Source: Acidimicrobiia bacterium (GTDB lineage: Bacteria > Actinomycetota > Acidimicrobiia > Spongiisociales > ZC4RG35). Taken from it: a stretch of 64,000 nt of DNA. Under the pieces are notes generated by a model. That model had not been told where the DNA came from, did not search any database, and saw nothing but the letters and a program-made list of their open reading frames with translations. The position numbers and the translations under genes were made by a program. The stretch is from contig JAICNB010000004.1 in the NCBI GenBank assembly GCA_025928935.1, positions 19,687 to 83,686 on the forward strand, read 5' to 3'. Numbering within the stretch: position 1 is the first letter of the stretch; each line of letters begins with the position of its first letter. This document shows positions 10,462 through 61,615 of this stretch, one piece after another.

Positions 10462-10537
10462 GGTCCCGTCGTCCAGAGGCCTAGGACGCCGGCCTTTCAA
10501 GCCGGAAACGCCGGTTCGAATCCGGTCGGGACTGCCA
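10462..10537 (+). tRNA. tRNA-Glu (anticodon TTC), CCA encoded
   Basis: Acceptor GGTCCCG/CGGGACT, anticodon stem CCGGC-ctTTCaa-GCCGG, T arm GCCGGTTCGAATCCGGT, discriminator G then CCA. Confidence 0.95.
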
Positions 10538-56335: not shown

Positions 56336-57891
56336 CCGGGCAGAATGACGGCCCGAGTGGTGTCGACCCGGGGGTCGGCGGCGGCGGCGACGACGGGGGG
56401 GTCGATAGCAATCACCGAGACGGGTCCCCAGTCCGACTGGGGGCCGGTGACCTCTTCGATCGAGTGCCCTCTTCTTCGTAGGTCGCTCACCGCGGCATGG
56501 GGAACTCCCGGCTCGATCTGGATCCGCGCCTCGGAGAACGGGCCGAAGTCCGCCACCGTCCACCGAGGGGCCCGTTGAGCGGCTTCGACATCGATGCCGG
56601 CCAACACCACACGCGCCGCCATCTGGGCCACGAGCTGTGGCTGCAGGGCCGCACCCCTGGTGCCCAGCACCAGCCTCGCCCGCTCCTCGTCCGTCCAGAT
56701 GGTGGGGGAAAGGGTGTGTCTGGGGCGCTTGCCGGGGCGTATCTCGTTGGGGTGGCCGGGAGTGGTGGTGAATCCGCTGCCCCGGTTGTGGAGCAGAAAT
56801 CCGCTGCGGCGGGCGCCAAAGTGGGATCCAGGCCCGGCGAAATTGGATTGGATGATCGAGACCGCCATCCCCTCGTGGTCGACGACACAGAGATAGGCGG
56901 TGCTCGACGGGGCACCGGTCCGTGGCCAGATGCCGGTGCGCGCCCTGTCGATGGTGGCCGCTGCCCGACGCAGGCGGTCCGGGTCGAGAAGCAAATGCGC
57001 CGGCAGTGGCGCATGGTCGGCGTCCGCCACGACGTCGTCACGCTCCCAGGCCACGGATCGGTACGCCTCGATCAGGAAATGCCACCAGTCGGGATGACCC
57101 GGGTCGTCCGGAGGCAACATCATCTCGAAGATGGCCAGGGTCGCCAGGCCGAGATACGCCTGGGAGTTGGGGGGAATGGTCCACGCCATCAGCCCACCAA
57201 TCGGGTAAGAGATAGGGCTGACCCACTCGGCATGGTCGCCGGCGAGATCCTCGATGAGGATGACGCCGTTGAGCTCCTCGACTATGTCTTCGGCAGGTCT
57301 GCCCCGATAGAAAGCGTCCCGGCCCCCGTCGGCGATGGCTTCGAGGGACCGTGCGAGCGCAGGCCGCCTGATCTGGTCTCCCGGGCTCACCACCAGGCCG
57401 TCCGGGTACAGCTCGCTCACGGCGGGGTGTCGCGCGTACACATGCGCCTCCTCGCCGAACCTCGCAGCCAGCTCGGTGCTCACTTCATAGCCCTCGATGC
57501 CGAGGGAGATGGCAGGGGCGAGGCAGTCCGCCAGCGACAGGCGACCGAGCTCCTGCGACAGCTTCGCCCAGCCGTCGACACAGCCGGGCACGGTGACGGA
57601 AAGTGGGTCGTGACGGCCGATCGTCCCCGAAGCAGGGTCTCGGGTCCTGGCCGCGGTCGCACCGGAGCCCGCTCGACCGGAGGCATTCAATGCTCGAGGC
57701 GTCTCCCATCCGGGACGATGAACCAGGGCGAAGAGGTCGCCTCCTATGCCACAGGTCTCCGGAGCGACCATCCCCTGTGTGGCAACGGCAGCGATGGCGG
57801 CATCGACCGCGTTCCCGCCTGATCCCAGCACGGACGCGGCGGCCTCCGTGGAGAGATGATGCGGAGTGGCGACGGCGCCGTTCAGAGCGAC
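56332..57891 (-). CDS. gamma-glutamyltransferase family protein
   Basis: VATPHHLSTEAAASVLGSGGNAVDAAIA; SSTAYLCVVDHEGMAVSIIQSNF; ending region with PHAAVSDLRRRGH. Confidence 0.88.
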   Translation of the reverse strand, partial: VALNGAVATPHHLSTEAAASVLGSGGNAVDAAIAAVATQGMVAPETCGIGGDLFALVHRPGWETPRALNASGRAGSGATAARTRDPASGTIGRHDPLSVTVPGCVDGWAKLSQELGRLSLADCLAPAISLGIEGYEVSTELAARFGEEAHVYARHPAVSELYPDGLVVSPGDQIRRPALARSLEAIADGGRDAFYRGRPAEDIVEELNGVILIEDLAGDHAEWVSPISYPIGGLMAWTIPPNSQAYLGLATLAIFEMMLPPDDPGHPDWWHFLIEAYRSVAWERDDVVADADHAPLPAHLLLDPDRLRRAAATIDRARTGIWPRTGAPSSTAYLCVVDHEGMAVSIIQSNFAGPGSHFGARRSGFLLHNRGSGFTTTPGHPNEIRPGKRPRHTLSPTIWTDEERARLVLGTRGAALQPQLVAQMAARVVLAGIDVEAAQRAPRWTVADFGPFSEARIQIEPGVPHAAVSDLRRRGHSIEEVTGPQSDWGPVSVIAIDPPVVAAAADPRVDTTRAVILPG

Positions 57892-58502
57892 TTGAGGTCG
57901 GGGAGGACTCGGTTCAGGGCGTCGAGCACGGCGCGTACCACCGCTCTCGATTCCTCGTCCTCGACGTATGCGCACCCGATCAGATGACGCTCGGTCGCTT
58001 CGGTGACCACGACCACTTGCGCCACCGCCACCTTCCGTCCGCCCAAGGCGGGGATTTCCATCGACGAAACCGCGAGGGCGGTATCACGGTGTATGGCCTG
58101 CCGGACGGCATCGAGGGTCGCCTCGGCTATCTGTCGGGGGCGGGTCGACATGGCGGCTGCCCCCTTGGCGATGCCGGTGAAGACCTCGTTCTGCCAACGA
58201 AGGCTGACCGAGACCTCGGCCCGGGAGCCGTCGAGAACCTCGCCGACGTCGATGAGGGCGGGGCGAAAACCCGTTCCCAGGTCCGAGTCCGCCAGCTGGA
58301 CCACCGAAACCACTCTGCGGTCTATCTCCTCGCCGAAGAGTGCCTGGCTGAGCGACTGCACGTCCCGAACCACCTGCTTGGCGGGCTTGTTGCGCCGGGC
58401 GAGAACGTGGATCTCTTCGATATGCCCGTTCCCTGCGACGATCCTGGCAGCCTCGACACCGTCGATTCGGCTGATTTTCTCCTGGAGGGCGAGCAGGTCC
58501 AT
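57882..58502 (-). CDS. conserved hypothetical protein
   Basis: 206 aa; IEEIHVLARRNKPAKQVVRDVQSLSQALFGEEIDRRVVSVVQL looks like a conserved uncharacterised domain. Confidence 0.7.
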   Translation of the reverse strand: MDLLALQEKISRIDGVEAARIVAGNGHIEEIHVLARRNKPAKQVVRDVQSLSQALFGEEIDRRVVSVVQLADSDLGTGFRPALIDVGEVLDGSRAEVSVSLRWQNEVFTGIAKGAAAMSTRPRQIAEATLDAVRQAIHRDTALAVSSMEIPALGGRKVAVAQVVVVTEATERHLIGCAYVEDEESRAVVRAVLDALNRVLPDLKSL

Positions 58503-58585
58503 GACCGCCAGCGTACAGTTCGGCGCTCCAGTGGTCAGCCATAACCTGCCATTTCCTCTTGTTCAGGGTTGGCCGAGGCTCTAGA

Positions 58586-58760
58586 TTTGCCTTGGCTGGA
58601 AGGCAAACAACCGGGCAACGTGGGGCAGCCGAGGTCTTTGACCCCGTCTGTCCGGCCTATGGCGGGCGAAGTCAGGGGCCTTTTGACATGTGAAAAGGTT
58701 CCCCGTCAGGTTTCTTGCCGGGGAAAAAGAGGTGAGACCGGCGTCAGACGTCGGCCTTTG
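58586..58760 (+). ncRNA. putative structured 5' leader RNA (candidate cis-regulatory element)
   Basis: Hairpin TTTGCCTT/AAGGCAAA with loop GGCTGG, CAGCC at 58626-58630 complementary to the loop, further nested and mutually exclusive hairpins; upstream of HD-domain gene pair. Confidence 0.45.
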
Positions 58761-58986
58761 GTACGGACGCCCATCGATCCAATAGCGGAGCGGATCGTCA
58801 AACACCGGCACACAACGTCGGTGGAATAACGGCACCAAACAGGTGAGCGCCCATGATGAAGGCATATCTGGCCCGTAATCTCCACTGTGTCGCGAGCCTG
58901 GAGTCAGTGCTCGCCGGCACCCGGATCGGCTGATCAACGGCGCCGGCTCACCAAAGACGTCACGACATGTCAGATAAAAGGGGCTC

Positions 58987-60378
58987 ATGAGGCTAGGTAG
59001 GACAAGACCGTTGCGGGGATGGTTCGGACGTCTCCGGCCCACCGTGCAGCGCAGGCTGCGCATCGCTGTGCCCTACTCCCTGATGGGTGCGTTCGCCCTG
59101 GTCGGCTCGTTCGTCGTGTCCGATATGCCCAACTGGCTCTACTGGTTCCCTTTCGCAGTCCTCTTCATCCTCCTCGAGTTCTTCGCCGTCGAAGTCAACG
59201 ACCGGATGCTGCAGTCCTCATCGGTGATGGTGGCGATGAGCGCTGGGGTCATAATGGCGATGAGCCCTGGCTCCGACGCCATGTTCGGGCTCGCCCTCAT
59301 GGGTGCCCTGGCGCTGTTCACTCCGCTCGACTTCAAGGAGAAGCGCTGGTTCCAGCCGGTGGCCAACTTCGGGCAGATCGTCACCGCCTGCGCCGTGTCG
59401 GGGTGGATCCTCGATGTGAACCTCGATGGGACCCGAATCACCGCCGGATCCCTCATCCACGTCCTATGGGTGTCGGCGCTGGCCGCCCTGGCCTACACCA
59501 CGGTGCAGACGGTCCTGGTCCGTCATGCTGTCAAGGTCGTCTTCGGACGGGACAATCTCGAGCCCTGGTCACAGATGCCGATCCTCTTCGGGGGACAGGT
59601 CGCAATGGGGCTGGTCGGTGGTCTCATCGGCGCCGCCTTCCTGATCGCCGGGGGCCAAGCCATCATCGTCTTCATCGTCGGCGTGTACGCCATCGGCCAC
59701 ATGTCGCTGTACGCCTTCGCCCAGCTCCGCGAGTCACACATCGGGTCGATCCGTGGATTCGTCAAGACCCTCGAGGCCAAGGACATGTACACCCGCGGCC
59801 ATACCGAGCGTGTCGCCTTCTTCGCCCAGATGATCGGCGAGGAGATGGGCTTCAACGGGACCCAGCTGGAGACCCTGCGCTGGTCGGCGCTGATCCACGA
59901 CCTGGGCAAGCTGGCGGTCCCGACCGAGCTGATCCGGAAGCGGGGACGTCTCGACGAAGACGAGTACGCCGACATGAAGGCCCATGCTCAGCTGGTCGAG
60001 GAGATTCTGGCCGAGGTGGACTTCCTCCAGCCGATGGTGGAGATCGCCTCGGGGCACCACAGCAACTTCGACGGGAGCGGGTACGGGGGGAGCGGGCACA
60101 CTCACGGTGACTCACCCAAGCTGGAGGCCTGCATCGTGGCTGTGGCTGATGCCTTCGACGCCATGACCTCGGCCCGGTCGTACAGGATGGCGCTCTCCCA
60201 GCAATACGCGATCTCGGAGCTGAGGGTGCACGCGGGCGGACAGTTCCACCCCGACGTGGTGGACGCCTTCGAGAAGGCCCTGGAAAAGACCGGGCGTCGT
60301 TGGGGGGCACCCCACGTGAACGACGAGGAGATGGCCCGTCGTCTCGCCGAGGAGCCGGAGCTGACTCTCCGTGGCTAG
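58987..60378 (+). CDS. membrane protein with HD-GYP-like phosphohydrolase domain
   Basis: Multi-TM N-terminus; TRGHTERVAFFAQMIGEEMG, ALIHDLGKLAVPTELIRKRGRLDEDEYADMKAH, GHHSNFDGSGYGG...VAVADAFDAMTSARSYRMAL. Confidence 0.9.
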   Translation: MRLGRTRPLRGWFGRLRPTVQRRLRIAVPYSLMGAFALVGSFVVSDMPNWLYWFPFAVLFILLEFFAVEVNDRMLQSSSVMVAMSAGVIMAMSPGSDAMFGLALMGALALFTPLDFKEKRWFQPVANFGQIVTACAVSGWILDVNLDGTRITAGSLIHVLWVSALAALAYTTVQTVLVRHAVKVVFGRDNLEPWSQMPILFGGQVAMGLVGGLIGAAFLIAGGQAIIVFIVGVYAIGHMSLYAFAQLRESHIGSIRGFVKTLEAKDMYTRGHTERVAFFAQMIGEEMGFNGTQLETLRWSALIHDLGKLAVPTELIRKRGRLDEDEYADMKAHAQLVEEILAEVDFLQPMVEIASGHHSNFDGSGYGGSGHTHGDSPKLEACIVAVADAFDAMTSARSYRMALSQQYAISELRVHAGGQFHPDVVDAFEKALEKTGRRWGAPHVNDEEMARRLAEEPELTLRG

Positions 60379-61615
60379 CTGGAGCCCGCGCGCCTTGGCG
60401 ATCGTCTCCTGGATGTACGTCGTCGTCGTCGCCGCCATCGGTCTCTACGCGGCCACCCTGGCATCGCTCGACCCGGTGACGATCCTGGTGGCGGTCACCG
60501 CCCTGGTCCTGGCCTCGATGGTGAGCGTCCCGGTCTCGAACTCGGGCAATCGGTTCACGGTCGGCCTCGCCGTTGCCGCCGCGGTCCCCATGGTCCTCGG
60601 TCCAACCGACGAAGTGGATCTCCCGGGTTCGATCGCGGTGTATGGGCTGGGCCTGGCGATCGTCTGGGCGCTCCGCTACTCACGTGGTGAGAAGCACAAC
60701 GACCTCCTGCCCACCCTGGTGCGGAGGTTCGCCGGTTACGCGACCTATGCCACGGTGTACGCCGCTCTCCGGACAGGGCCTTTCACCGACATGAACGGTG
60801 GTTGGGCGGACCTGGTCCCCTTCGGCGTGGCCCTGCTGGCATGGATGGCGGTGGAGGTATTCCTCAGGGCGATGCTGGTCGTGGGCAAGAGAGAGCTCTC
60901 CCGGAGCTATCTGGCCCGATCGCTCATCCACGATCTCAACGTCTTCCTCGGGCTCGCGCTGACCGGGGGCCTGTTCGGAGAGCTTTGGCCCACCATCCGC
61001 TGGTGGGCACTTCCCATCGCCGCCCTGCCCTACTCGTTCGCCCACCTCGCCTTCCTGCGCTTCCAGGAGACGAAAGTCACCTACAAACAGACCATCCGGG
61101 CCCTGGCACGGATCCCGGAGGTGTCGGGACTGGGGGTCGACGGCCACGCCGACCGGACCACGGATCTGGCGGCGACGATCGCCAAGGAGATCGGGCTCGG
61201 ACCGGTGGAAGTCGAAGATGTCGAGTACACCGGGCTGATGCACGACATCGGGCGCGTCAGCCTCAACGAGCCCCAGATCGTGCTCCACGGGTACACCAAC
61301 GACGACATCGCCCGGTGGAGCTCGGAGATCATCGCCGAGTCGCCTTACCTGAGCCGGGTCGCCACCCATGTCCGGCATCAGTACGAGCCTTACCGCAAGC
61401 CTGGCGAGCAGTCGGACCCCGAGGTTTCCGACGTCTCACGCATCGTCAAGGTCGCGGCCGCATACGACTGGCAGGTGCATCTGGAGGGCCTGTCCCCGCT
61501 TCAGGCATTGGAGGTGCTCCACAGCGGCGCCGCCTACGACTTCGACCCGGAGGTTGTTGCGTCTTTGCGAAGGATCCTGGAGACCCGGGGCGTCCTCACT
61601 CCGGTCCGCGTCTGA
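60371..61615 (+). CDS. membrane protein with divergent HD-GYP-like domain, tandem partner
   Basis: Multi-TM N-terminus; VDGHADRTTDLAATIAKEIGL, YTGLMHDIGRVSL, VRHQYEPYRKP, RIVKVAAAYDW; start overlaps the upstream stop by 8 bp. Confidence 0.82.
   Translation: MASWSPRALAIVSWMYVVVVAAIGLYAATLASLDPVTILVAVTALVLASMVSVPVSNSGNRFTVGLAVAAAVPMVLGPTDEVDLPGSIAVYGLGLAIVWALRYSRGEKHNDLLPTLVRRFAGYATYATVYAALRTGPFTDMNGGWADLVPFGVALLAWMAVEVFLRAMLVVGKRELSRSYLARSLIHDLNVFLGLALTGGLFGELWPTIRWWALPIAALPYSFAHLAFLRFQETKVTYKQTIRALARIPEVSGLGVDGHADRTTDLAATIAKEIGLGPVEVEDVEYTGLMHDIGRVSLNEPQIVLHGYTNDDIARWSSEIIAESPYLSRVATHVRHQYEPYRKPGEQSDPEVSDVSRIVKVAAAYDWQVHLEGLSPLQALEVLHSGAAYDFDPEVVASLRRILETRGVLTPVRV

Follow-up and report, generated by a model that had tools for sequence, protein, structure and literature searches.

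Small signal precursors of the Phr, PrgQ and AgrD types are encoded beside the receptor, and riboswitches of the c-di-GMP-I and c-di-GMP-II classes can precede genes for cyclic-dinucleotide signalling. Control may also be exerted through a short leader ORF. One such ORF, encoding the 24 residues of TnaC, stands before its operon and works by termination arrest (PMC8429421), while that of the macrolide-resistance gene msrD encodes just six (MsrDL, MYLIFM-stop) and stalls at its stop codon, this peptide-dependent arrest altering the folding of the RNA and controlling the downstream gene (PMC10314930).

The locus considered here occupies a gap of 484 bp between a divergent gene (57885-58502, minus strand) and the gene for a membrane HD protein (HD1, beginning at 58987), in a window that comprises the whole 64,000-nucleotide stretch of DNA analysed. 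The genome is of Acidimicrobiia type, MAGs of that class being the nearest named relatives in the search. An earlier reading made from the sequence alone (referred to below as the sequence-only reading) had proposed that the gap holds no credible gene and that it forms a leader, structured and acting in cis on the HD operon, that lies outside Rfam. The second proposal holds, there being a conserved leader that matches no Rfam family; the first is right in that there is no long gene, but a short ORF is present (58853/58856-58933), which is conserved and preceded by a Shine-Dalgarno sequence of its own. All the evidence concerning the leader is comparative (the locus counts given below take in partial contigs), and on this footing the gap is a real, conserved RNA control region that encodes a small peptide as well. 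It contains a promoter-like pair, a structured RNA, a ribosome-binding site and the short ORF. The strings named in the sequence-only reading were checked and are all present where it had placed them, while the promoter, the anchor, the short ORF and the long-range helix, called P-long here, had escaped it. The features, including the flanking genes, are as follows:

57885-58502, minus strand: divergent conserved protein of 206 aa, with orthologs of 40-73% identity beside most of the leaders checked
58559-58587, plus strand: promoter-like pair TTGTTC - 17 nt - TAGATT, seen as invariant blocks in aligned relatives
58595-58599, plus strand: conserved GCTGG, the probable transcription start
58625-58660, plus strand: hairpin H0 around GGTC/GACC, a family-level feature that recurs with changed arms (alignment by eye)
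58675-58698, plus strand: hairpin H1 with loop TTGACAnnTGA, the loop motif being conserved and the stem covariation weak
58699-58725, plus strand: hairpin H2, TTCCCCG/CGGGGAA, assessed by an arm-swapping control
58731-58745, plus strand: 5' arm of P-long, assessed by arm-swapping controls
58784-58794, plus strand: anchor AGCGGAGCGGA, the most conserved sequence, probably unpaired
58803-58823, plus strand: hairpin H3, CACCGGC/GTCGGTG, predicted unaided and with compensatory changes in the 11-sequence alignment A4
58841-58847, plus strand: Shine-Dalgarno-like AGGTGAG, AGGTGAG/AGGAGG being kept before the ORF
58853-58933, plus strand: short ORF MMKAYLARNLHCVASLESVLAGTRIG-stop, of which frame, start and RIG-stop are kept
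58939-58952, plus strand: 3' arm of P-long, 5 nt past the stop codon of the ORF, the two arms changing together across relatives
58987-60378, plus strand: HD1, a membrane protein with an HD-GYP-type phosphodiesterase domain (PF13487, E 1.3e-27)
60371-61615, plus strand: HD2, a second membrane HD protein (PF13487, E 2.2e-7), overlapping the end of HD1

HD1 carries the motif GHHSNFDGSGYGG, which is of the HHxxxDGxGYP type with GYG in place of GYP. Its structural relatives are PDB 5z7c (E 5.9e-30) and, from Foldseek, 9rbz and 4mcw (the mean pLDDT of the HD1 model being 73), and among solved structures cGAMP and c-di-GMP phosphodiesterases come closest; HD1 is probably a cyclic-dinucleotide phosphodiesterase, and the first protein of its operon. 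Its N-terminal half (58987-59766) is predicted to be a membrane domain, for which Foldseek matched the ECF S-components ThiT and FolT, though weakly (E 0.4-0.9), and in one locus, L040 (G004:C132), the match to the HD1 ortholog contains one in-frame TGA. In the sequence of HD2 the HHxxxDGxGY motif is not recognisable. The divergent protein is possibly a small-molecule-binding regulator; its C-terminal part has a weak similarity, below cut-off, to the LeuA regulatory dimerisation domain (PF08502, E 0.0026). Weak PF08502 matches were likewise seen in two of the four orthologs scanned.

In a DNA search of 60 relatives the leader was matched in 14 genomes, the best-kept part being 58660-58849 (158-347 of the query), with 71-79% identity in several other genera. 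The claim that the gap is structured was borne out, in that it folds more stably than dinucleotide shuffles of itself (z -3.0, with 1 of 100 shuffles as good); for the putative transcript the corresponding figure is z -2.4. Scanned at Rfam gathering scores, neither the window nor 40 relative loci yielded a match for the leader (Rfam recognised just one element in the window, a tRNA gene at 10462-10534), and the c-di-GMP riboswitch models gave no match within 58300-59100 up to E = 10. A likeness to c-di-GMP-I had been suggested from a GGCAAAC string, but a search against RF01051 and RF01786, which the sequence-only reading had itself put forward, returned neither, and a known riboswitch was rejected for want of an Rfam match. 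No description of the leader was found in the literature covered, that is, in open-licence papers, and the element is undescribed in Rfam, Pfam and NCBIfam. It may nonetheless be asked whether H0-H3 and the anchor could form the aptamer of a metabolite-binding riboswitch, given the complexity of the structure, the near-invariant, unpaired-looking anchor and the position before a probable cyclic-dinucleotide phosphodiesterase. This we consider very improbable: no Rfam riboswitch matches even at E 10, apart from the anchor little of the core is conserved, and that little differs from class to class, and the leader is single-copy in its own genome and was always seen before HD1. Where a riboswitch or an attenuator had been offered as alternatives, an attenuator-like leader is the nearer description, though a scan of the leader found no intrinsic terminator.

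At the 5' end of the gap (58559-58599), the blocks common to the aligned relatives are TTGT..17 nt..TAGATT and GCTGGAA. A strict consensus promoter scan did not list the TTGTTC/TAGATT pair, so that the promoter reading rests on conservation. It is here that an 8-bp hairpin, TTTGCCTT/AAGGCAAA, had been proposed together with an H-type pseudoknot, neither of which is kept even within the genus. The 5' arm of this hairpin overlaps the end of the conserved -10-like element (58582-58587) and runs on into the bases that precede the likely start site, and both structures were rejected because they straddle promoter and transcription start and lack conservation.

Further downstream, the proposed GGTC/GACC pairing (58633-58643) proved to belong to a hairpin (H0) found again in relatives, where the arms are for instance CGGCC/GGCCG, as judged by eye. 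The CCTTTT/AAAAGG pairing of H1 recurs also, but its covariation is weak (own arms 16.4, foreign arms 14.7); the TTGACAnnTGA loop motif is present in family f8 as well. For H2, own arms score 20.1 as against 16.0 (sd 3.1) for foreign ones, with 16 different helices among 19 sequences, and this covariation makes the CCCCG/CGGGG stem (58701-58723) a genuine hairpin and part of the regular structure, leaving GGGG/CCCC as a dubious extension and the suggested pair of mutually exclusive CCCC stems unsupported. In the window and its close relatives the H1 loop TGACATGT (58687-58694) can pair with ACATGTCA (58967-58975), just 5' of HD1. A pairing of the loop UUGACAUGU with ACAUGUCA before HD1 is confined to close relatives with little variation, and is not claimed. 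In nearly all orthologs examined the order before the HD gene is helix, anchor (AGCGRAGCG), ORF of 20-30 codons and HD gene, and in this cassette, as in nearly all loci, the anchor stands 61-80 nt 5' of the ORF; by chance it would be expected about 2.4 times per 64 kb, counting both strands, or about 0.007 times per 400 nt.

P-long encloses the anchor, H3, the ribosome-binding site and the short ORF in one closed domain. In an 11-sequence subset (A4) RNAalifold found both P-long and H3 unaided, 13 of 35 predicted pairs being changed on both sides, while on alignment A3 it returned no structure, apparently because MAFFT had misaligned the arms; alignment A7 slipped too. Arm-swapping controls were therefore adopted, in which the score is that of the best stem joining sequence 5' of the anchor to sequence 3' of the ORF stop; the swapped arms include those of close relatives, which makes the control conservative. 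Across 59 leaders own arms score a mean of 38.1 as against 26.3 (sd 6.1) with 3' arms swapped between species. For some of these leaders the stop codon was picked from several by its stem score; in a previous set of 39 leaders, where no such choice was made, the values were 38.0 for own, 26.4 for swapped and 24.6 for shuffled arms. An earlier duplex-energy test, for which long arms were used, gave a poorer separation of own and foreign. At 13 loci from other classes or orders the values are 47.0 own and 28.2 swapped (sd 6.9). L187, L192, L195, L203 and L204 have helices of 27-39 bp, and a convincing P-long is absent from L189 and L201 (both without the anchor) and from L199 (anchor present). 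Within the G441 class the gap is smaller (36.9 own, 28.0 foreign, sd 5.9) because the arms there are near identical (GGACCGACATCA/TGATGTCGGTCC). Such helices, of roughly 11-39 bp and joining both flanks of one domain, might suggest an RNase III-type processing stem that would excise the short-ORF domain from the operon mRNA, in the manner of rRNA-precursor stems; as this would leave unexplained both the anchor and the conserved peptide end beside the 3' arm, we think it improbable.

The reading favoured here, tentatively and with confidence that falls a little short of even, is that the HD1-HD2 operon has its 5' leader in this region, which would act as a ribosome-read control device of the leader-peptide type. 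A short ORF with a ribosome-binding site stands before the operon and is conserved as coding in its 29-codon form, and there is RNA structure overlapping the ORF or its stop that a ribosome could displace (displacement having been modelled only); an alternative structure hiding a downstream ribosome-binding site or forming a terminator was not found in the leader. In the window's order the 3' arm of P-long begins between -3 and about 25 nt past the stop codon, so that a terminating ribosome must meet the arm or stand close to it, and since it is the strongest helix that encloses the short ORF, the alternative states would be free RNA and ribosome-occupied RNA. Constrained folding of 35 leaders with a ribosome on the stop cuts P-long pairing from a mean of 23 pairs to 14, and leaves the accessibility of the HD1 ribosome-binding site where it was (0.38 vs 0.38). 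Unmasking of that site is therefore unsupported by folding, which leaves re-initiation, Rho access or RNA processing. The mechanism would then be that a ribosome at the stop codon occupies the 3' arm or pushes it aside for a dwell time set by the conserved peptide end, [KR][ILV]G-stop, and that the open or closed state of P-long governs HD1-HD2 output by one of these routes. By analogy, MsrDL and TnaC are precedents for termination arrest.

The peptide itself has also to be considered. Most of the short ORFs encode a hydrophobic peptide, and in the 35 distinct 29-codon ORFs (consensus MK..LVR......SLAA...AG.AS..IG) third codon positions vary most, pS and pN being 0.70 and 0.37 in frame as against 0.44/0.42 and 0.40/0.47 when the frame is shifted, while Ala24 is invariant and uses all four codons. 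The 29-aa form is, by this substitution pattern, under purifying selection along its whole length, hydrophobic core included. In appearance it is signal-like, with MK.[KR], a hydrophobic core, AG.A and then a short tail; against Pfam and NCBIfam models, pheromone families included, the short-ORF peptide gave nothing above cut-off. There is also a family, f64, in which tandem, near-identical ORFs of 20-23 codons ending VRW-stop precede the HD1 homolog without an anchor (tandem loci of this type are L191, L193, L194, L202, L205 and L206). The whole-length selection and the tandem copies count against the leader-peptide device, in that they suggest a role for the finished peptide, and it is because of them that its main rival is a strong one. 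On this rival account the short ORF encodes a working peptide, either a small membrane protein or else a precursor processed to a short tail that is exported, that would regulate or bind the membrane HD protein, with the RNA domain only setting the amount of peptide or protecting its message; we hold it to be a serious possibility, if on balance a doubtful one.

What speaks against a working peptide is the loss of the hydrophobic part in several lineages where RNA and tail stay. The window's own ORF is a shortened, non-hydrophobic relative of the 29-aa family: in its genus the ORF has 25-26 codons, of which only frame and ends are kept, and relative to G002 there are four nonsynonymous and no synonymous codon changes, with RNA, frame and RIG-stop unchanged. 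Peptides of the window's order end in [KR][ILV]G-stop. Family f8, which keeps the RNA and HD1, has an ORF of only six codons, M[STN]W[RK][IV]G-stop, overlapping in several members the stop of a short upstream ORF (ATGA/GTGA), and family f6 has 14-codon ORFs ending RVG-stop (both as read from the sequences). In L058 the ORF is split and its end is SKIG-stop, and in L054 a second mini-ORF, MSARIG-stop, lies 3' of the 29-mer. The tail is duplicated in L055 too, as a repeated STKIG. From the reduced ORFs of f8, f6 and the window's genus it follows that the hydrophobic core is lost sooner than RNA, frame and [KR][ILV]G-stop, and the peptide end, which persists where other coding parts have gone (f8, f6, L058, L054), is, on this comparison, a point in favour of the leader-peptide device.

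As to distribution, a profile search of the class for the short ORF matched 81 of 396 genomes, the strong matches lying nearly all within the window's order and mostly one per genome. Among 49 loci inspected, almost all of those with upstream sequence have the anchor at its usual distance, and the divergent gene and HD1 are present where the contig extends that far. L144, which lies outside the order and has neither the anchor nor the HD1/divergent-gene context, was set aside as a likely chance match. HD1 homologs were found in 29 of the 36 genomes of the G441 class and in 94 of 398 sampled across the phylum, and upstream of most of those inspected lies a short ORF of 20-30 codons whose product is hydrophobic and basic, in many cases together with the anchor; neither was found at L167 and L171, and the exact anchor is absent from L180 and L186. 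That such ORFs precede HD1 homologs in several classes, anchor-less loci included, is a further point for a working peptide. Beyond the window's order the tails differ from one another (VRW, WRW, GVWK, GLR), which on the sequences compared counts against the leader-peptide device, and a single C-terminal motif for the whole phylum was rejected, [KR][ILV]G being found mainly in the window's order. Taken across these genomes, the RNA-plus-peptide element is ancient, having been kept across several classes of one phylum.

A wider picture, which we regard as unlikely in its entirety, is that of an unrecognised phylum-wide cassette in which the peptide of 20-30 residues would be a partner or ligand of the membrane HD-GYP-type phosphodiesterase, its ORF being held in an RNA clamp (P-long plus AGCGRAGCG) through which the terminating ribosome would set expression of the receptor. 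The locus is in any event a candidate either for a new switch of the leader-peptide kind (marked by an enclosing helix, a six-codon ORF and [KR][ILV]G-stop) or for a new peptide signal in poorly studied Actinomycetota, and the reduced-ORF families are of value in separating the parts that are kept (RNA, tail and stop) from the dispensable hydrophobic core.

When the described systems are set beside it, MsrDL resembles the f8 leaders in size, both having six-codon ORFs, but is unrelated in sequence to the window's peptide; it has an intrinsic terminator and senses erythromycin, whereas in the window's leader no terminator was found and a long helix surrounds the ORF, and its stalling has been shown, whereas the window's leader is known from comparison. 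TnaC and SpeFL, both of which work by termination arrest, share with that leader a short ORF before an operon, with no sequence likeness to its peptide noted, and TnaC control involves a Rho site and a ligand-bound nascent chain, whereas the present leader is again known by comparing sequences. From the c-di-GMP-I and -II riboswitches it differs in matching neither model. With the Phr, PrgQ and AgrD types the family has in common a short ORF with a basic start, a hydrophobic core and a short tail, beside a membrane signalling protein; it differs from them in matching no NCBIfam or Pfam pheromone model, in having an HD phosphodiesterase as partner and an ORF placed inside an RNA helix, and in that, in f8, the tail persists without the hydrophobic part.
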